A DNA stretch of 64,000 bases from Halosolutus gelatinilyticus. Its GTDB lineage: Archaea > Halobacteriota > Halobacteria > Halobacteriales > Natrialbaceae. Positions 47,904-59,770 of the stretch are shown here, one piece after another. How positions within the stretch are numbered: position 1 is the stretch's first letter; every line of letters begins with the position of its first letter. The notes under the pieces are model-generated. The model ran no database searches. It was not told the DNA's origin and saw only the letters and a program-made list of their open reading frames with translations. Both the position numbers and the translations under genes were made by a program. The stretch spans positions 1,488,001-1,552,000 of the forward strand of contig NZ_CP095491.1 in assembly GCF_023028105.1 (NCBI RefSeq), in the 5' to 3' direction.

Positions 47904-49529
47904 CTAACTGAACTTTTGGACCGTCACGTCGAGCGTGTCGAGATCGACGATCGGGGCGTACCCCGAGTCGGGGTCGATATTGACGCTCTTCTGGAAGTCG
48001 GTCTGGGCCTGCCAGCAGCCGGAGTTGATCGCGAGCACGTTGTGGTACTTGCCGAAGCCGAGTTTGTGGACGTGACCCGTGTGGAAGATGTCGGGCACCT
48101 CGTCGATGATGAGGTAGTCCTTCTCCTCGGGTGCGAGGCGGGTGTGGCCCCCGAACTGTGGTGCGACGTGGCGCTTCTTCAGGAGCTGGTACATCGCCTT
48201 GTGGGGCTCGTCGTAGCTCGCTTTCTCTGCGGGAAGCTCCGCGATTACCTCGTCGAGCGAGACGCCGTGGTACATGAGAACGGAGACGCCCTCGATCGTC
48301 ACCGTCGACGGGTTGCTCACGATGCGCGGGGCATGGGCCGACATGATTTCCCGGAGTTCCTCGTCGAACCCGGGCTGGGGCTCCGCCAGGCGCACCGCGT
48401 CGTGGTTGCCCGGGATCATGACGATCTCGAGGTCGCCGGGAACCTGTTTCAGGCGCTCGCTGAACGCCTCGTACTGCTCGTAGATATCGACGATGTCGAG
48501 TTCCTCGTCCTGATTGGGGTAGACGCCGACGCCCTCGACCATGTCGCCCGCGATCAGCAGGTACTCGACGGCCTCGCCCGCCTCGGTGTGGAGCCAGTCC
48601 GCGAACCGGTTCCACGCGTCCGCCATGAACTCCTGGCTACCGACGTGGACGTCGCTGATGAGCGCCGCCTGAACCGGCCGATCGGCCGTCGACGGTTCGT
48701 GGGTTCGAGGAACGTCGGGGAAGTACATCGAATCGACGAACGCGATCCCCGAGTCGTCCGAGAGCGTCCCTTCCATGGCGAGCACCTCGTCGCAGAGCAG
48801 TTCGTCGACGAGGTCGACGTACTCCCGGTCTTTCATCACGAGCCACGGGAACGTTCCGGTGGCGTCCTCGAGTTCGATCAGCCAGTGGCCGCTGGCCGTC
48901 GATCGCACGTCGTTGACCAGCCCGACCATCGCGACCTCACCGCCGCCCGGCATGTTCTGGATCGCCGTCGCCGGCCGGTGATTGACCCGTCCCCGCAGCT
49001 TCGAGCCGAGCCGATTGAGGCGATCCCGGAACACCGACACGAAATCGCCGTACTCGCCGGTTCCCGTACTCTGCCCGGTCATGTCGTTTCGAATCTCGAG
49101 CGATCGGGCCTCGGGGTCGACCGAGCGATCGGCCGCCGATCGAGACCCCTTCGTTTCAACTGGAGAACGGTCACCGTCGGCTGGCGAATCCTCGGCGCCA
49201 GCTCCAGTTGAAACAGGGGGGTTGCTCGTTGATGCGTCCGCACTGGCATCGGCGTCGGTATCGGACGCCGAATCGGCGCCGCTGGCCCGATCAGCGGCGT
49301 TCGCGTCCGGTTCGGAGTCGCCGGCGCCTCGCTCCCGGTTGGCCTCCAGGACCGTTTCGACGTGGTCCGTGCTGACGACGAGCGCCTCCGCCGGAACCCG
49401 CTCGATGACGCGTTCCAGGACAGCCTGCGGGTCGTCCGCGGCGGCGATGCGCGTCACCGCCTCGCGCTCGGCGTTGTAGCCGCGGTTCGTGAGTTCGCTG
49501 ACGATCCGGGCGGGACCCTCGAGTGGCAC
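47904..49529 (-). CDS. polD1: DNA polymerase D small subunit DP1 (3'-5' exonuclease)
   Basis: This 541-residue small subunit of the archaeal replicative PolD has a calcineurin-like phosphoesterase core: ALISDVHVGS, LIAGDMVEGVG, MIPGNHDAVR, MYHGVSLDE and HTGHVHKLGFG. An OB-fold precedes it (GLVNDVRSTASGHWLIELEDATG). An N-terminal helical region and an Asp/Ser/Ala-rich linker (about residues 75-145) complete it. GTG 49529 starts the conserved VPLEGPARIVSELTNRGYNAERE. Two ORB-like DNA motifs lie inside the linker codons. The order polD1-sec11-orc1 matches the start of the Haloferax chromosome as I recall it. Confidence 0.95.
   Translation of the reverse strand: MPLEGPARIVSELTNRGYNAEREAVTRIAAADDPQAVLERVIERVPAEALVVSTDHVETVLEANRERGAGDSEPDANAADRASGADSASDTDADASADASTSNPPVSTGAGAEDSPADGDRSPVETKGSRSAADRSVDPEARSLEIRNDMTGQSTGTGEYGDFVSVFRDRLNRLGSKLRGRVNHRPATAIQNMPGGGEVAMVGLVNDVRSTASGHWLIELEDATGTFPWLVMKDREYVDLVDELLCDEVLAMEGTLSDDSGIAFVDSMYFPDVPRTHEPSTADRPVQAALISDVHVGSQEFMADAWNRFADWLHTEAGEAVEYLLIAGDMVEGVGVYPNQDEELDIVDIYEQYEAFSERLKQVPGDLEIVMIPGNHDAVRLAEPQPGFDEELREIMSAHAPRIVSNPSTVTIEGVSVLMYHGVSLDEVIAELPAEKASYDEPHKAMYQLLKKRHVAPQFGGHTRLAPEEKDYLIIDEVPDIFHTGHVHKLGFGKYHNVLAINSGCWQAQTDFQKSVNIDPDSGYAPIVDLDTLDVTVQKFS
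49146..49168 (-). repeat. ORB-like element inside polD1 (a)
   Basis: On the minus strand the core reads CTCCAGTTGAAACGAAGGGG, matching the origin box at 53809. It encodes the linker residues SPVETKG. The G-string points to lower coordinates. Confidence 0.65.
49202..49222 (+). repeat. ORB-like element inside polD1 (b)
   Basis: CTCCAGTTGAAACAGGGGGG on the plus strand, 33 bp from element (a) and in opposite orientation. It is the complement of codons for PPVSTGA in the DP1 linker. Confidence 0.65.
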
Positions 49530-49733
49530 ACCCCTCGAATTCGTGAGCGCGGGGAAAAACGTAGCGGATCCGAGATCGTTCGATCGTAACGGCTCCGAGA
49601 CCGCTCGATTCGATCGCGGCGGCCGCTCGACGGGATCGCCCTGTCGAAGGCCGGGTCGGGTCAGATCGGCGTCCCCGACCCGGCGGGCGTCCGAGCAGAA
49701 AGTTGATTGCCGGCCGCGGCAAAACACGGGACG

Positions 49734-50810
49734 ATGACCGGCCCCGATTCCGGAGACACCGACGACGACGACGCCGGAGACGGTACTTCCGATCACCGTT
49801 TCTCGGGCCCAGGTGACGACCCGTCGTCGGACGGGACCGCCGCTCCGGACGATACGTACGACGACGCGACTGCGCACCGATCGACCGAGGCCGGCCGGCG
49901 ATCGACTTCCGAATCGGGTCGAACCGACGGCGACGCGATCGCAGCCGAGCAGGGATCGGCGACTCGGACGCCCGACTCCTCGAACGCCGGGGCGGGAACC
50001 GACGAGGTGACGATCGCGGAGGTCGGTATCGTTCGCTGGTTTCTGCGAACCGACGACGAGTCGGTCGTCCTCGCCCGCGATATCCTGAGCAGCGTCGCGC
50101 TCGTCGCGCTCATCGGCCTCCTGCTGTTCGGGATCAGCGGCATCTGGCCGCCGCTGGTCGCCGTCGAGAGCGGGAGCATGGAACCCAACATGCAAGAGGG
50201 AGACCTGATCTTCATCGTCGACGACGACCGATTCGTCGGCGACGATCCGATCGACGGCACCGGGATCGTTACCCGCGAAACCGGGCAGGACAGCGGCCAC
50301 GAGAAGTTCAGTCAACCCGGCGACGTCATCGTCTTCAAACCCGACGGAAGCGATCGCCGGACGCCCGTCATCCATCGGGCCCACTTCTGGGTCGAAAAGG
50401 GCGAAAACTGGGTCGACACCAAGGCGAACCAGAAGTACCTCGGTGGGGCCACCTGCGCCGAAGTACAAGCCTGTCCGGCGCCGCACGACGGCTTCGTCAC
50501 CAAGGGCGACGATAACATGGGCTACGATCAGCACTACGGCGGGGCCCAGACGAACATCGTCAAACCCGAGTGGGTCACCGGCAAGGCCATGTTCCGGATC
50601 CCGTATCTCGGACACATCCGGCTGGCCTTCGACTCGATCTTCGGGATGACGGCCCCGACGTCGCCGTCGATCATCAACTCGATCGCGATCGAGCCGGGAC
50701 TGTCAGCGGGATCGGGCCAGGGGCCTGGACTCGCCGGTCCGGCCGGCGCAGCGGCGACGGCAACGACCGGCGCGACGGCTGCGGCCGCCATCACGCGACG
50801 ACGACGGTAA
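49734..50810 (+). CDS. sec11: Signal peptidase I (archaeal Sec11 type)
   Basis: This 358-residue S26B-type signal peptidase removes Sec signal peptides at the membrane. A low-complexity acidic N-terminal region of about 95 residues precedes a membrane helix (SSVALVALIGLLLFGISGIW). The catalytic serine lies in VESGSMEPNMQEGD; then GDVIVFKPDG, VIHRAHFW (the His that replaces the bacterial Lys) and VTKGDDN follow. A second hydrophobic region near the C-terminus ends in RRRR. The ATG at 49734 was chosen. It is divergent from polD1 and convergent with orc1. Confidence 0.94.
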   Translation: MTGPDSGDTDDDDAGDGTSDHRFSGPGDDPSSDGTAAPDDTYDDATAHRSTEAGRRSTSESGRTDGDAIAAEQGSATRTPDSSNAGAGTDEVTIAEVGIVRWFLRTDDESVVLARDILSSVALVALIGLLLFGISGIWPPLVAVESGSMEPNMQEGDLIFIVDDDRFVGDDPIDGTGIVTRETGQDSGHEKFSQPGDVIVFKPDGSDRRTPVIHRAHFWVEKGENWVDTKANQKYLGGATCAEVQACPAPHDGFVTKGDDNMGYDQHYGGAQTNIVKPEWVTGKAMFRIPYLGHIRLAFDSIFGMTAPTSPSIINSIAIEPGLSAGSGQGPGLAGPAGAAATATTGATAAAAITRRRR

Positions 50811-50921: not shown

Positions 50922-52685
50922 TCAATTCTCGAAACGGGCCTGGACGAACGGCTGGATGTCGTCGATATCGCTCAACCGGGAGTCCGAGAGCAGGACGGCC
51001 TCGGTCTCTTCGAGCGGAACCGAGAGGCTGATCTCCTTCGTTCGACCGTACCGCCCCTTCGAGACGACGATCGCGTTCACGATTCCGAGCATATCGAGTT
51101 CGCTGATGAGATCGGTGACGCGGCGCTGGGTCAGCACGTCGGCGTCGATCTCCTCGCAGAGGCGCTTGTAGATGTTGAACACCTCGCCCGTGTTGATGCT
51201 GTGGACGCCGTTCTTCTCGAGGAGGATGATCGCGAAAAGGACGAGTTTGCTCTGCGTCGGCAGGGTCCGGACGACCTCGACGACCCGGTCGAGTTCGATC
51301 TTGTCCTGGGCCTGCCGGACGTGTTCCTCGTCGATCGTCTCGGCCTGGGACCGCTCCGCGAGTTCGCCCGCCGTTCGAAGCAGATCGAGCGCGCGGCGCG
51401 CGTCCCCGTGTTCCTGCGCGGCGAACGCGGCGCACAGCGGGATCACGTCGTCGGACAGCGCACCTTCCTTGAACGCGACCTCCGATCGGTGCTGGAGGAT
51501 GTCCCGCAACTGGTTGGCGTCGTACGGCGGGAAGACGATCTCCTCTTCGCCCAGCGAGGACTTGACGCGCGGGTCGAGGAAGTCGGTGAACTTCAGATCG
51601 TTCGAGATGCCGATGATCGAGACGCGCGAGTTCTCGAGTTCGGAGTTCATCCGCGAGAGGTTGTAGAGCGTGTCGTCGCCGCTCTTCTCGACGAGTTTGT
51701 CGATCTCGTCGAGCATGATCACGACGACCCGCTCGTCGTAATCGACGGCGTCGAAGAACACGCTGTAGACCCGATCGGTCGGCCAACCGGTCATCGGCAC
51801 TTCCTCGAACGACTCCTCGTCGGCGCGCAGTTGGTCGATCCGGTCTTCGATCTCCGCACGCGAACCGAACGGCGTCGATTCCAGCGGATGGTCCGGCGGG
51901 AGCGTTCCACCGGCACCGATCGCGTCGCCGCGCGTTCCGTCGCCGGACGTCCCGCTGCCGCCCGTCGCGTCGCTACCCGGATCTCCGGTATCGAGTGCTG
52001 AATCAGACCCCCCTGTTTCAACTGCAGATTCGCCAGACTTGACGTCGAAGTTACCTCCAGCCGAAACCGAATCGTCGGGGTCGGAGCCGTCTCGATCGGA
52101 CGACAGACCAGCCGCCTCGTCGAAGAGATCGGACTGGGTAGTAGCCCGGTCGGCCGGTCGATCGTACTCCTCGAGCTTCTCGAGGAGCGATTCGAGTGTG
52201 TCGATCCGATCGGCGATCTGCGCCTCGTTTTTCTCGATGAACTTGTTCGCCAGCTGCGCGAGGACGCGGTACTGCGTGTCGGTTACCTCGCAGTTGATGT
52301 ACTCGACGTCGCAGGGAACGCTGTACTTCTGGGAGGTGCTCTCGAGTTCCTTGCTGACGAACTTGGCGCTCGCGGTCTTTCCGGTGCCGGTCTTCCCGTA
52401 GATGAGGATGTTCGACGGCGTTTCGCCGCGGAGGGCGGCGACGAGAATCGTCGCCATCTTGTTGATCTGGTCGCTACGGTGTGGCAGTTCGTGTGGCGTG
52501 TAGGACGGACGTAACACCTCCTTGTTCTCGAAGATCGGCTCCCCGCTGAGGAGGTCGTCGAACAACCCCTGATTCGAACTTTCGTCTTCGATATCGGAAT
52601 TCCCGAAATCAGTCGAAAAGCCGGCTGTTTCGTCGCGCTCGACGTTTACGTCGGTCCTGGTGGATTCCGTATTCTTGTCTGACAT
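50922..52685 (-). CDS. orc1: Orc1/Cdc6 replication initiator
   Basis: This 587-residue AAA+ initiator binds ORB elements and recruits the MCM helicase. Motifs are YGKTGTGKTASAKF (Walker A), VVIMLDEIDKL (Walker B), IIGISNDLKF (sensor 1) and a C-terminal winged helix (about 490-585; TGEVFNIYKRLCEEIDADVLTQRRVTDLISELDMLG). An unusually long acidic Gly/Ser/Asp-rich insertion (about residues 165-280) sits between the Walker motifs. An ORB-like DNA motif lies in the insertion codons at 52007-52027. The ATG at 52685 (MSDKNTES) is preferred over the in-frame ATG at 52700. It is adjacent to the origin. Confidence 0.97.
   Translation of the reverse strand: MSDKNTESTRTDVNVERDETAGFSTDFGNSDIEDESSNQGLFDDLLSGEPIFENKEVLRPSYTPHELPHRSDQINKMATILVAALRGETPSNILIYGKTGTGKTASAKFVSKELESTSQKYSVPCDVEYINCEVTDTQYRVLAQLANKFIEKNEAQIADRIDTLESLLEKLEEYDRPADRATTQSDLFDEAAGLSSDRDGSDPDDSVSAGGNFDVKSGESAVETGGSDSALDTGDPGSDATGGSGTSGDGTRGDAIGAGGTLPPDHPLESTPFGSRAEIEDRIDQLRADEESFEEVPMTGWPTDRVYSVFFDAVDYDERVVVIMLDEIDKLVEKSGDDTLYNLSRMNSELENSRVSIIGISNDLKFTDFLDPRVKSSLGEEEIVFPPYDANQLRDILQHRSEVAFKEGALSDDVIPLCAAFAAQEHGDARRALDLLRTAGELAERSQAETIDEEHVRQAQDKIELDRVVEVVRTLPTQSKLVLFAIILLEKNGVHSINTGEVFNIYKRLCEEIDADVLTQRRVTDLISELDMLGIVNAIVVSKGRYGRTKEISLSVPLEETEAVLLSDSRLSDIDDIQPFVQARFEN
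52007..52027 (-). repeat. ORB-like element inside orc1 (c)
   Basis: On the minus strand CTGCAGTTGAAACAGGGGGG. It encodes AVETGG within the low-complexity insertion of Orc1. Confidence 0.6.
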
Positions 52686-52698
52686 CCGTCGTACACGC

Positions 52699-52720
52699 AC
52701 CCCCTTATTTCGAGTGGAAC
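52699..52720 (-). repeat. ORB element next to orc1 (d), overlapping its likely TATA box
   Basis: On the minus strand GTTCCACTCGAAATAAGGGG followed by GT. The part AAATAAGG is TATA-like and lies 18-25 nt before the ATG at 52685, so initiator binding could control orc1 transcription. Confidence 0.72.
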
Positions 52721-53486
52721 GCCGACCCCGGATACAGGAATACAGCCAGTGAAACGGCCAATATCGGCTATTTCACCCATCCAGATATCAGGATCGGGTC
52801 CAGTTGATGCAAACGAAACAGAGGAAGACATTGGTAATAAAATCTTCCATTCAATGCAGCTGTTGTGACGACGTTCGGACCGATCGGCGTATCGGCATGT
52901 CGGACGGCATTCGGCCGCATTCGACCTCCACATTCGGTCGCGTTCGGTACTGGCGTCGATCGAAACGGCTCGCGATCGAGCACTGCGACCCTCGGTCGCG
53001 GCAGTTCGCGGACGCTCGTTTCGCGTCGACGCTCCGTCGTCCCGTCGGGACGAAGCGGCTAGGTTCGATTCGCGGTCCGGACAACCGAGCGGGTGATCGG
53101 CGCGACCGTCCCGTCGATCGATTCGAGCGACGACTGTGATCGTTTCACCAGTAGGTGACAATACGATCCGGGCGTAGTCCTGCACGCAGTGATTACGATG
53201 CGTGGTGCTCACGACGCCGTCCGTTCCGTGCGATAGTCGTCAACGTCCCGAGAGTCAACGACCCCGAAAGTCACTGTCCGAGAGTTAGGATGCCGGCGCC
53301 CGCGTCCCGTAAAGTCGTACTGCGATCGGCGGACGTATCGCGACCACTATGCAGCGGCTCGTTGCGGTGACGATCGGATCGATCGCTGGGCGAGATAGAC
53401 GCGGCTTACGAGAAAACGACGTGAAAGATCGGAATCGGCGAGCAATGCGATGGAGTGCTGTGTTATTCCACAACACGATGGTTCGG

Positions 53487-53517
53487 AACCCCCCCACCCC
53501 TTCGTTTCAGGTGGAAC
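53487..53517 (-). repeat. ORB element flanking the unwinding core, left (e)
   Basis: On the minus strand GTTCCACCTGAAACGAAGGG, then G, T, and seven G. It is the longest G-string of the set, pointing away from the A+T-rich core. Confidence 0.85.
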
Positions 53518-53584
53518 GACCCGAGAGAGTGGACGGGATCGACGGATTATCGGACGGAAGGATTTATTTAGATGGGTGAGAAAC

Positions 53585-53700
53585 AGTATCCGTAGAACTA
53601 GCAAAACGCCATACATTACTAGGGTATTGTATTCAATTACTAGATTCTACTAGAATACTTGGATTAGACCGTTCACATTACTAGGACCGTCGCTTCTCCA
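53585..53700. other. A+T-rich duplex unwinding element with CTAG cluster
   Basis: The stretch 53613-53685 has about one third G+C by hand count, far below the rest of the window. It contains CATTACTAGG twice (53614-53623, 53676-53685) plus ATTACTAG and TCTACTAG. CTAG occurs five times (53598, 53619, 53640, 53650, 53681). It lies between two outward-facing ORBs, as expected for the site of first strand opening. Confidence 0.75.
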
Positions 53701-53808
53701 ATATTCTCCAGGGAGCTCCCCGTTATTCGGGGTTCGAGCCGAAATCGGGGACGATCGTGTCCGCTCAGTGATGAGTTCTCCTACTCACGGAATACCGGCC
53801 TCGCAGAT

Positions 53809-53835
53809 CTCCAGTTGAAACGAAGGGGTGGGGGT
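53809..53835 (+). repeat. ORB element flanking the unwinding core, right (f)
   Basis: CTCCAGTTGAAACGAAGGGG followed by TGGGGGT on the plus strand. The G-string points away from the core. Confidence 0.85.
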
Positions 53836-54094
53836 GTCCGAGAGCAGCAAGGCGAGTGCGACATTCTCTACCGATGTCCGAGTCGTTGACGGTCACAGCG
53901 GCAGCAATAATGACGATTCAGATCGCGACACTGATTGCTACGACGATGACGATCACTACGTCGTCCCGCGACGATCCCCGCCGATCGTTGGTCGACTGAT
54001 CGTATTCAACTGGTGGACTGACCGTATTCAATACTGGTTGCTATCCCCTGTCGTTGTCCGTCGTCCCCAAACCTGTCGTCTGTCACTCGGACAA

Positions 54095-54123
54095 CGTACA
54101 TCGGATAGGCGTACGTCGGATAG
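54095..54123 (+). repeat. Tandem 15-bp direct repeat upstream of oapA
   Basis: CGTACATCGGATAG (54095-54108) and CGTACGTCGGATAG (54110-54123) differ at one base and lie one helical face-and-a-half apart (15 bp). TTCATAG and CTCATAG copies follow at once. It lies 25 bp before a TATA-like TTTATATG (54149-54156) and may be a regulator site. Confidence 0.5.
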
Positions 54124-54264
54124 TTCATAGTACTCATAGATCACGGTCTTTATATGAGATCGAGCGTTCCCCGCCCACTGGTTCCCAATCGGATCGTTCT
54201 CCGACGGATATTTCACGCGACGGTTTGATTCAATCGTATTTGACAGTCAACACGTCTGACGTAG

Positions 54265-54272
54265 GCTTAAGT
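54265..54272 (+). promoter_or_regulatory. TATA box of the oapABC operon
   Basis: GCTTAAGT lies 56-63 nt before the oapA ATG, giving a leader of about 30 nt. The leader carries GGAGGT at 54314-54319, 8 nt before the ATG at 54328. This Shine-Dalgarno fixes the start and is unusual in a window where most genes look leaderless. A stronger TATA (TTTATATG, 54149-54156) may serve a longer transcript. Confidence 0.5.
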
Positions 54273-54327
54273 GAGTTCGGTTTGTACTACGCGCAGATGC
54301 ACCCCGTGGTGCTGGAGGTCCCCAAGG

Positions 54328-54966
54328 ATGGGATTGTTCACAGAGCTCAAAGATAGTATCTCTCGGGTCACGGAACGCCTGTTCTCCGAACAGGAGCCCA
54401 AACGAATCGGTATCTATGGTCCGCCGAACGCCGGCAAGACGACGCTCGCGAACCGAATCGCCCGCGACTGGACTGGTGACGCTGTCGGGACGGAGAGTCA
54501 CATTCCACACGAAACGCGCCGCGCACGCCGGAAGGAAGGCGTCGAGATCGAACGGAACGGCAAGACGGTGACGATCGACATCGTCGACACGCCGGGCGTC
54601 ACGACGAAGGTCGATTACGAGGAGTTCACCGACGAGATGGAAGAAGACGACGCCATCCGCCGATCGCGAGAGGCGACCGAGGGCGTCGCCGAGGCGATGC
54701 ATTGGTTGCGGGAGGACGTCGACGGCGTCATCTACGTTCTGGACAGCGCAGAGGACCCGATCACGCAGGTCAACACGATGTTGATCGGGATCATCGAATC
54801 CCGCGATCTGCCGGTATTGATCTTCGCGAACAAGATCGACCTCGATGAATCGAGCGTCAAGCGGATCGAGGACGCCTTCCCGCAGCATAAGACGGTTCCG
54901 CTGTCGGCCAAGGAGGGCGAGAATATGGACGAAGTGTACGAGAGCATCGCGGAGTACTTCGGGTGA
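54328..54966 (+). CDS. oapA: Origin-associated GTPase OapA (Era-like)
   Basis: This 212-residue GTPase has IGIYGPPNAGKTTLANRI (G1), IVDTPGVTTK (G3), FANKIDL (G4) and LSAKEG (G5). It belongs to the archaeal Era-like group encoded next to haloarchaeal oriC1 and named origin-associated protein A. Its role in origin use or growth is only partly known. The ATG at 54328 has a Shine-Dalgarno GGAGGT 8 nt upstream. It is the first gene of a three-gene operon with very short overlaps. Confidence 0.9.
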   Translation: MGLFTELKDSISRVTERLFSEQEPKRIGIYGPPNAGKTTLANRIARDWTGDAVGTESHIPHETRRARRKEGVEIERNGKTVTIDIVDTPGVTTKVDYEEFTDEMEEDDAIRRSREATEGVAEAMHWLREDVDGVIYVLDSAEDPITQVNTMLIGIIESRDLPVLIFANKIDLDESSVKRIEDAFPQHKTVPLSAKEGENMDEVYESIAEYFG

Positions 54967-54971
54967 TAGCC

Positions 54972-55373
54972 ATGCCAAAAGCAACGAACGCGGACGAACC
55001 GGACGCTCCGGACGGTGTCCAGATCGACCTCATCAGCGGCGAACGGATGGACGGAATGGCGACCATGGAGAAGATCCGGATGATCTTAGACGGTGTCCAC
55101 GAGGGGAACATCGTCATCCTCGAAGAGGGGTTGACGCCCGACGAGGAGAGTAGACTCATCGAGGTGACGATGTCCGAGATCAGTCCCAACGAGTTCAACG
55201 GGATCGAGATCGAGACCTACCCGCGGTCGGACACGCGCGATTCGTCGCTGCTCGGTCGGATCATGGGATCGAACGAGTCGACGGCGAAACTGACCGTGAT
55301 CGGCCCGGCGAACCAGATCGAAACGCTCCACAAGGACGAAACGCTCATCAGCGCACTCGTGTCCCGAGACTAA
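54972..55373 (+). CDS. oapB: Origin-associated protein OapB (DUF2073 family)
   Basis: This 133-residue protein has the DUF2073 pattern: VQIDLISGERMDGMATMEKIRMILDGVHEGNIVILEEGLTPDEESRLIEVTM, then GIEIETYPR and the C-terminal LTVIGPANQIETLHKDETLISALV. It is placed by gene order and family as OapB. The ATG at 54972 lies 5 bp after the oapA stop; an in-frame GTG at 54963 overlaps that stop and is an alternative. It is co-transcribed with oapA and oapC. Confidence 0.88.
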   Translation: MPKATNADEPDAPDGVQIDLISGERMDGMATMEKIRMILDGVHEGNIVILEEGLTPDEESRLIEVTMSEISPNEFNGIEIETYPRSDTRDSSLLGRIMGSNESTAKLTVIGPANQIETLHKDETLISALVSRD

Positions 55374-56284
55374 TGCCTCACCAATGCACGAACTGCGGCC
55401 GGGTGTTCCCTGACGGCTCGAAGGAGATGCTCTCGGGCTGTCCCGACTGCGGCGGGAACAAGTTCCAGTTCGCGCCGAAGGCGATGGCCGCACGCGAGTC
55501 GGCGGATACGGGCGACTCCGGATCGACCCGGGCTCGATCGACCGCGTCGTCCCGAACGACGGAGTCCGCCGACGTCACCGATTCCGGAGCCGGTTCGGAG
55601 GGAGCCGGCGGCACACGTACTGCGAGTGAGTCACGCACCGCGGGAGAGAAGAACTCTGACTGGCCCTCGTCTGCGTCGCCCGACGCCGGCGACGCGTCCA
55701 CCCCGGCGACCGGATCGGACGAGTTCACTGAGTGGCCCGACGCCGCACGGCGGCCCGAGGATCGATCGGCACCGCCACAGGAAGAGCGGGCCGATACCGG
55801 GACGGACTCCCCTGTCGATTCGGCAGACCCGACCGATAGATCGGATCCGGTCGACCCGTCGGACAGGACGTCGCTCCCGGACGACGAAGACACCGCACAG
55901 GCCGACGCGCGCAGCGAAGTCGTGTCGACGGACGACCTCCCGTCGCAGCCGCCGGACGAGCTTCCACCGCGGACCCGCGATACCGACGATCGGGCCGCGA
56001 CCGGGTCGACGGACGTCCCACCGGAATCTCGACCCGCAGACGACGCCGCACCGCCGGGCAACGGCCGCGTCGTCAGCGAACCGTCGGCCGATCGACCGTC
56101 GATCGAAGAGCTCCGCGCGGAACTCAACCAACAGTTCGAGAGCATCAAGATCCTGCAGCCGGGCCAGTACGAACTCAACCTGATGGAGCTCTACAACCGT
56201 GAGGAGTACATCGTGTCGCTGCAAGAGGACGGGCGGTACGTCATCGACGTCCCGGAATCGTGGCGCGGCGCCGACTCCGAGTAA
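55373..56284 (+). CDS. oapC: Origin-associated zinc-ribbon protein OapC
   Basis: This 303-residue protein has an N-terminal zinc ribbon (CTNCGRVFPDG, CPDCGGNKF). A long low-complexity linker rich in Ser, Asp, Pro and Thr follows (about 40-235), then a conserved C-terminal segment IEELRAELNQQFESIKILQPGQYELNLMELYNREEYIVSLQEDGRYVIDVPESW. Its ATG overlaps the oapB stop by one base (TAATG). This layout matches OapC of haloarchaeal origin clusters. It may bind nucleic acid through the ribbon. Confidence 0.88.
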   Translation: MPHQCTNCGRVFPDGSKEMLSGCPDCGGNKFQFAPKAMAARESADTGDSGSTRARSTASSRTTESADVTDSGAGSEGAGGTRTASESRTAGEKNSDWPSSASPDAGDASTPATGSDEFTEWPDAARRPEDRSAPPQEERADTGTDSPVDSADPTDRSDPVDPSDRTSLPDDEDTAQADARSEVVSTDDLPSQPPDELPPRTRDTDDRAATGSTDVPPESRPADDAAPPGNGRVVSEPSADRPSIEELRAELNQQFESIKILQPGQYELNLMELYNREEYIVSLQEDGRYVIDVPESWRGADSE

Positions 56285-56368: not shown

Positions 56369-56390
56369 CTCCAGTTGAAATGATGGTGTG
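56369..56390 (+). repeat. Degenerate ORB-like element after oapC (g)
   Basis: CTCCAGTTGAAATGATGGTG followed by TG. The core half is perfect compared with element (f), but the G-string is broken. It may be a decayed or weak box. Confidence 0.45.
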
Positions 56391-59466: not shown

Positions 59467-59770
59467 CGGCGTCGTCTCCGCTCGCCGATCGTCTCGCCGT
59501 ATCGAATCACCGATCAGCTGCCGTATCGCACCGCCCGTTCGCCTCCCACCGCCGGTGCAGCCCTCGGTTTCGACTGCAACCGACGTCCACGGGTGCCGGG
59601 CTACCGACCGCTCTGTCGCAGTCGTTCACCGATTCTCGCTCGTCGATTTCCGTTCTCGGTTTCCGTTCCGAACCCCCGTTCGCCCCGACACCCCTCCGTT
59701 TCCACTCGAACCGCGTGATCAGGGGCCGATTCGACGGTATTGGCGTCCGTCGCCTTCGATCGGCCTGCCG
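59467..59770. other. Intergenic region without recognisable feature
   Basis: These 304 bases between convergent genes have frames open on several strands, as expected from high G+C, and no family motif. I see no RNA gene, palindrome of note or clear promoter. Confidence 0.4.

Follow-up and report, generated by a model that had tools for sequence, protein, structure and literature searches.

Does the gap between orc1 and oapA hold a replication origin, and what is the role of the ORBs that lie outside this gap, among them an inverted pair inside the DNA polymerase gene polD1? The gap spans 1,642 bp (52686–54327), from the end of the orc1 ATG at 52685 to the oapA ATG at 54328, within the window, by which we mean the whole 64-kb stretch of DNA that was analysed. 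Coordinates of all features are collected in Table 1.

Table 1. Features of the candidate origin and its surroundings, by position in the window.
Feature	Position	Strand	Remarks
polD1, DNA polymerase D small subunit (DP1), start inferred	47904..49601	-	PF04042; hosts ORB pair
polD1 intragenic ORB arm 1	49146..49165	-	34.3 bits; 20-mer identical to ORB-R, then TCT, no long G-string
polD1 intragenic ORB arm 2	49202..49221	+	27.0 bits; inverted relative to arm 1 and 56 bp away; outward-pointing G-ends
sec11 / signal peptidase I, start uncertain	49707..50810	+	TIGR02228
orc1, initiator gene beside origin	50922..52685	-	NF001625, 655.7 bits against a cut-off of 501; ORC1-type replication protein
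ORB-like site in orc1 variable insertion	52008..52027	-	21.9 bits; a weak partner in inverted orientation lies 47 bp further on
Third ORB in gap	52700..52719	-	24.6 bits; 14 bp upstream of orc1 start codon
ORB-L with extended G-string on outer side	53488..53516 (20-mer core 53497-53516)	-	32.3 bits
A+T-rich core, probable unwinding element	53559..53668	.	66% A+T, top 110 bp of 64-kb window
Five CTAG	53598, 53619, 53640, 53650, 53681 (53598..53684)	.	Spacings 21, 21, 10, 31
ORB-R with extended G-string on outer side	53809..53837 (20-mer core 53809-53828)	+	34.3 bits
oapA, small GTP-binding protein	54328..54966	+	GTPase match; name taken from first-pass annotation
oapB, start uncertain	54963..55373	+	PF09846
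oapC	55373..56284	+	PF09845
Weaker ORB-like site between oapC and DUF7089 gene	56369..56388	+	20.4 bits
Second weaker ORB-like site	59560-59579		14.2 bits
Weaker ORB-like site	59691..59710	-	21.4 bits

The orc1-oapA gap as a candidate oriC1

The first-pass annotation had described the gap as an oriC1-type origin with two inverted ORBs whose G-strings point away from an A+T-rich core of about 110 bp. The inverted pair was confirmed, with arms at 53488–53515 and 53810–53837 that are 28 nt each, 89% complementary and 294 nt apart, but the count was too low, as a third ORB lies beside orc1. The C/G runs of both arms of the pair were found on the outer sides, with the G-ends outward as described, and the most A+T-rich 110 bp of the window lies between them. 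A search with the pattern TTCCANNTGAAACGAAGGGG (18 fixed bases), allowing up to three mismatches, returned four matches in the window against 0.01 expected, and the exact 13-mer TGAAACGAAGGGG occurs in three copies in the 4.76-Mb genome, namely in ORB-L, in ORB-R and in polD1. The claimed oriC1-type neighbourhood also held, with the NF001625, PF09846, PF09845, GTPase, TIGR02228 and PF04042 matches all in place; the gene order polD1-sec11-orc1 / GTPase (oapA)-oapB-oapC was found here and in relatives, and the order polD1-sec11-orc1 / oapABC is also given in the legend of Figure 2 of PMC4010727.

For comparison, 80 loci were fetched, of which 11 were left out for want of an orc1-oapA pair, and the window plus 69 loci of named haloarchaea made up a set of 70 gaps. 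One locus is represented twice, as L034 and L035; both copies are counted in the 70 and in the 58 polD1 loci described below, L035 being omitted from alignment A1 only. An inverted ORB pair was present in all 70 gaps. In genomes of genus g29 (G004, G120, G281 and others) oriC1 and its ORB pair lie approximately 10 kb from oapB and do not adjoin it. The possibility that g29 is devoid of ORB pairs was rejected on finding the pair at this distance; no ORB pair was found in 2 of the 15 g29 genomes searched.

The locus shares with described haloarchaeal oriC1 loci (Haloarcula hispanica oriC1-cdc6A and relatives; PMC3936714, PMC3528665, PMC4010727) the orc1/cdc6 neighbour, the gene neighbourhood, the inverted ORBs, the extended G-string and the A+T-rich region. 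In H. hispanica a G-rich inverted repeat inside the ORBs is described as enhancing oriC1 (PMC3936714, PMC3528665, PMC4010727), whereas none was seen in the host core when read by eye, and the host differs further in its third ORB upstream of orc1 and in its scattered ORBs. Judged from its sequence, the gap is almost certainly haloarchaeal oriC1, and an ordinary representative of this known kind of origin. The annotation had gone further in holding that the gap fixes a replication start. All the sequence features expected of oriC1 are present and conserved; that the gap is used as an origin in vivo is something we infer, GC skew giving no confirmation, with no turn at oriC1 over 400 kb. Keto skew over the same 400 kb declines to the left and climbs to the right, its broad minimum lying 29 kb from oriC1.

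The region between the two inverted ORBs is marked by a cluster of CTAG. This tetramer is avoided in the window (13 occurrences against 73 expected), and five of the 13 fall within 87 bp at the core. Across the 70 loci the density of CTAG was 21.9 per kb between the ORBs (432 in 19,729 nt), 1.27 per kb in the remaining gap (94 in 73,877 nt) and 0.29 per kb in the remainder of the loci (297 in 1,015,609 nt); not one of the 15 other palindromic tetramers was concentrated like CTAG in these loci. L082 (Halostella pelagica) is the sole locus of the 70 with a single CTAG between its ORBs. The spacing series 49-20/21-21/22-10-31 is common to many Natrialbaceae-type loci and other loci differ, descent not being separated in this comparison. 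The spacings lie near multiples of the helical repeat (10.4).

In 2016 Blow et al. (PMC4752239) described CTAG clusters upstream of haloarchaeal orc1/cdc6 genes and an associated orphan m4C methyltransferase, and PMC10609329 restates this. The cluster upstream of orc1 is therefore already published, and its confinement between the ORBs, of which we found no printed account, is a refinement of that pattern. The present cluster fits the published clusters, and the genome has a gene of matching distribution; the differences are its placement between two ORBs and the spacing shared by many Natrialbaceae-type loci. In PMC4752239 the orphan motif of haloarchaea is given as CATG in the body of the article but as CTAG in the Figure 6 legend. 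For Haloferax volcanii, PMC5867850 describes CTAG as raised at only one origin, and a strain without its restriction-modification genes as having no growth defect.

The host genome encodes a 366-aa methyltransferase (PF01555). Among 392 genomes of the order, 349 have a relative of this gene. It is missing mainly from one genus, taken to be Halorubrum, and its distribution matches that of the published CTAG enzyme, making CTAG its putative specificity. In family f5 there were 49 CTAG in 5,922 nt where the methyltransferase gene is present and 3 in 2,762 nt where it is absent, while genus g29 gave the reverse (0 in 614 nt with the gene, 8 in 2,063 nt without), such that dependence of the cluster on the methyltransferase is supported between groups but not within g29. 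Substitution of GATC for CTAG in origins of genomes without the CTAG methyltransferase was considered and rejected, GATC not being raised in the core.

Codon-level selection on an inverted ORB pair in polD1

The remaining copy of the 13-mer belongs to a second inverted pair, which sits in the variable low-complexity linker of DP1. A polD1 match was obtained in 67 loci, and 58 of these were selected for a pair with no more than 10 mismatches; the spacing and codon counts given here describe those 58. Among the nine others, seven yielded no frame spanning the whole linker, and L048 and L099 have one arm only. The arm starts are 56 bp apart in 54 of the 58 loci, 53 bp in three and 74 bp in one, and the 11 codons in the 36 bp that separate the arms are free in sequence.

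Within the arms, by comparison, codons are fixed, with GTT used for 42 of 42 valines, ACT for 49 of 49 threonines, GGA for 52 of 52 glycines and CCA for 51 of 51 prolines, although these are rare synonyms that make up 3–9% of the codons for their amino acid in the catalytic part of polD1. Ahead of arm 2 the amino acid varies and the third base is nearly always T. The pair thus shows selection at the level of codons, which bears directly on whether it might be a protein motif of the DP1 linker (DPSVSTG ... SPVETKG) that merely resembles two ORBs. The peptides can still be recognised in loci with one decayed DNA arm, but a protein motif would not explain the fixed rare synonyms, nor a third base that is kept at the arm edges while the amino acid varies, nor the 5.6 mismatches to the ORB pair observed against 14.8 ± 2.2 in the same peptides randomly recoded, and we give this explanation only a slight chance. 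An mRNA hairpin was also rejected, since the arms show no covariation and their pairing does not exceed that with shuffled partners.

The pair was followed in ten genomes chosen because the match to the pair model R1 lay away from its usual place or on a contig other than that of oapB. In all ten the match was in polD1 and had the 56-bp pair, at distances from oapB that start at 5 kb, on its opposite side, and reach 1.76 Mb, two genomes giving no distance. In G258 and G024 orc1 had been displaced together with polD1, and in G200, G374 and G344 it had remained by oapA; in G094 orc1 was found beside neither polD1 nor oapA. Because the pair stays with polD1 when the gene moves, over displacements of 26 kb to 1.76 Mb, it belongs to polD1, and its interpretation as part of oriC1 is unsupported. 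In a set of 30 genomes chosen mostly from weakly matching families, polD1 was found in 29 and the pair with no more than eight mismatches in only seven of these, hence some parts of the order have lost the intact pair or never had it. Searches with R1 in other parts of the phylum gave, outside the order, weak matches alone (E 7e-5 or worse), and a count of 385 of 392 genomes was set aside because chance matches in GC-rich genomes reach about 1e-6. The polD1 arms mostly continue from GGGG into TCT, and with neither a long G-string nor an A+T-rich core the pair is probably not an origin.

ORBs before and inside orc1 and around oriC1

Further ORBs are associated with orc1 itself. In 69 of the 70 loci the part of the gap towards orc1 holds an ORB with no more than five mismatches, compared with 1.7% in shuffled sequence, and exactly three sites of at least 12 bits were found in 56 of the 70 gaps. 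The position of this third ORB suggests that orc1 is controlled by its own product. The ORB-like site inside orc1 was found in 39 of the 70 loci; counterparts lie 500–1,000 nt into orc1 in 35 of the 70, and none fall in the two adjacent 500-bp bins. The Orc1 family match is broken by a variable insertion of approximately 100 residues (window positions ~51790–52100), and it is this insertion that carries the ORB-like site.

Using a weight matrix built from the origin and polD1 arms, we found 14 sites of at least 12 bits in the 400 kb centred on oriC1, compared with none in a 400-kb control segment from the same contig and an average of 0.2 in Markov-random sequence of that length. Ten genomes from the same family yielded 96 sites with no more than three mismatches besides the oriC1 pair, 71 of them within 150 kb of oriC1 and 82 within 250 kb, a count that leaves out one site of the window genome on another contig and one site of G240. 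Sixteen genomes from four other families contributed 99 extra sites (69 within 150 kb, 79 within 250 kb), giving 195 in the 26 genomes pooled (140 within 150 kb, 161 within 250 kb), where the share expected by chance within 150 kb is 8–9.5% and a control with the reversed pattern gave 0–3 matches per genome. The genomes are related and several of the sites are syntenic, therefore these counts are not independent, and binomial probabilities calculated from them come out much too small. Orientation is even, with 23 plus-strand and 18 minus-strand sites to the left and 21 and 20, respectively, to the right (10 genomes, 250 kb).

One of the sites in the host genome lies just behind tRNA-Gln(CTG), 33 kb from oriC1, and the same tRNA neighbours an ORB in nine of nine further tRNA-scanned loci, which were chosen for that likeness. 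The ORB sites cluster around oriC1 and are conserved, and they very probably constitute a selected, origin-centred field. A search limited to open-access literature found no account of ORBs within polD1 or of a scatter of ORBs around oriC1.

The genome also has a second origin candidate (C1:3441926-3442378; locus L011, ~810–1265), with its own ORB type and beside another cdc6 gene. It lies 1.90 Mb from oriC1 on the 3.91-Mb contig, almost opposite, and has six CTAG within 200 bp nearby. Its ORB type is not scattered, the four best matches all falling in its own gap.

Possible roles of the scattered sites

At archaeal origins, Orc1 is described as binding the ORBs, with MCM loaded between them (PMC7776575, PMC12141716). 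By the mechanism given in the archaeal-origin literature, Orc1 would here occupy the two inverted gap ORBs, its AAA+ part lying over the outer G-strings, and MCM would be loaded onto the A+T-rich core between them, from which forks would depart both ways. About ten more sites of this ORB type are spread over about 150–250 kb on each side with no strand polarity, in a field that includes the site upstream of orc1, the orc1-internal site, the inverted pair in polD1, the site at tRNA-Gln(CTG) and others. In its most likely role the field would hold Orc1 and lower the level of free Orc1 once the origin region has been copied, a titration like that proposed for the DnaA boxes near E. coli oriC, and orc1 and polD1 would be controlled locally alongside it. 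The sites, their clustering and conservation and the codon-level selection in polD1 are observed; Orc1 binding, titration and regulation at the scattered sites are what we infer. The reading as a whole, in which oriC1 is accompanied by an origin-centred field of Orc1 sites that probably acts as an initiator sink, in gene control or both, is put forward tentatively from sequence comparison, at a little under an even chance. That titration is the main role of the field is plausible yet falls short of probable: a sink of about ten sites would be small, the strand bias of the E. coli type is absent, and the sites in and before orc1 and polD1 fit gene control as well as they fit titration.

Gene control could in fact be the whole explanation if Orc1 is a transcription factor, with the orc1 and polD1 sites serving as operators or roadblocks that tie expression to the level of Orc1 and the other sites regulating further genes. 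The recurrence of the upstream and internal orc1 sites among the 70 loci, and the fact that the pair accompanies polD1 when polD1 moves, are in keeping with such a role; several sites, however, lie behind genes or in unassigned ORFs, and gene control does not require clustering over hundreds of kilobases around oriC1, which makes this account on its own rather unlikely. An origin-centred scatter on both sides with no strand polarity, and inverted pairs with fixed spacing, would also be compatible with elements for anchoring or segregating the origin region, comparable to bacterial parS and bound by Orc1 or another protein. The sites are identical to those of the initiator, though, which leaves Orc1 as the simplest binder, and we regard parS-like elements as improbable. 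It is more improbable still that the inverted pairs of the scatter serve as accessory or dormant replication starts in a broad initiation zone. Their G-ends point outward as in oriC1, but the polD1 arms are only 36 bp apart and have neither the A+T-rich core nor the long G-string, without which plasmids with the Haloarcula hispanica oriC1 are reported not to replicate (PMC3936714). Given these two absences, the polD1 pair more likely serves as an Orc1 sink or in gene control than in initiation.

Titration by initiator motifs has been proposed in two systems with which the field may be compared. DnaA boxes accumulate near E. coli oriC, with strand bias, in what has been proposed as a titration region (PMC12371093), and the greater density of initiator motifs near the origin is common to both. 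The present field differs in having about ten sites around one origin, an archaeal initiator, a function that is predicted, no strand bias and conserved inverted pairs inside genes. Strand bias is not regarded as a defining feature, and the place is not filed as a titration region of the DnaA-box type. At oriC2D of Haloarcula hispanica, ORBs outside the origin are proposed to titrate the initiator (PMC3936714); there, 11 ORBs lie in one 722-bp gap beside cdc6E, whereas here the gap contains three ORBs and the rest are singles and pairs over a few hundred kilobases around oriC1.

How re-firing of the conserved origin is controlled in archaea with multiple origins is, according to the literature consulted, little understood. 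The genome-wide list of extra Orc1-type sites makes initiator titration testable in tractable haloarchaea, and the ORB pair in polD1 could be removed by synonymous changes. For the annotation of origins, an ORB alone does not mark an origin. For the biology of haloarchaea, it is possible, if rather doubtful, that the field counts copies of the origin through titration of Orc1 and couples initiation to the synthesis of initiator and polymerase, in which case it would be an independently evolved counterpart of DnaA titration.
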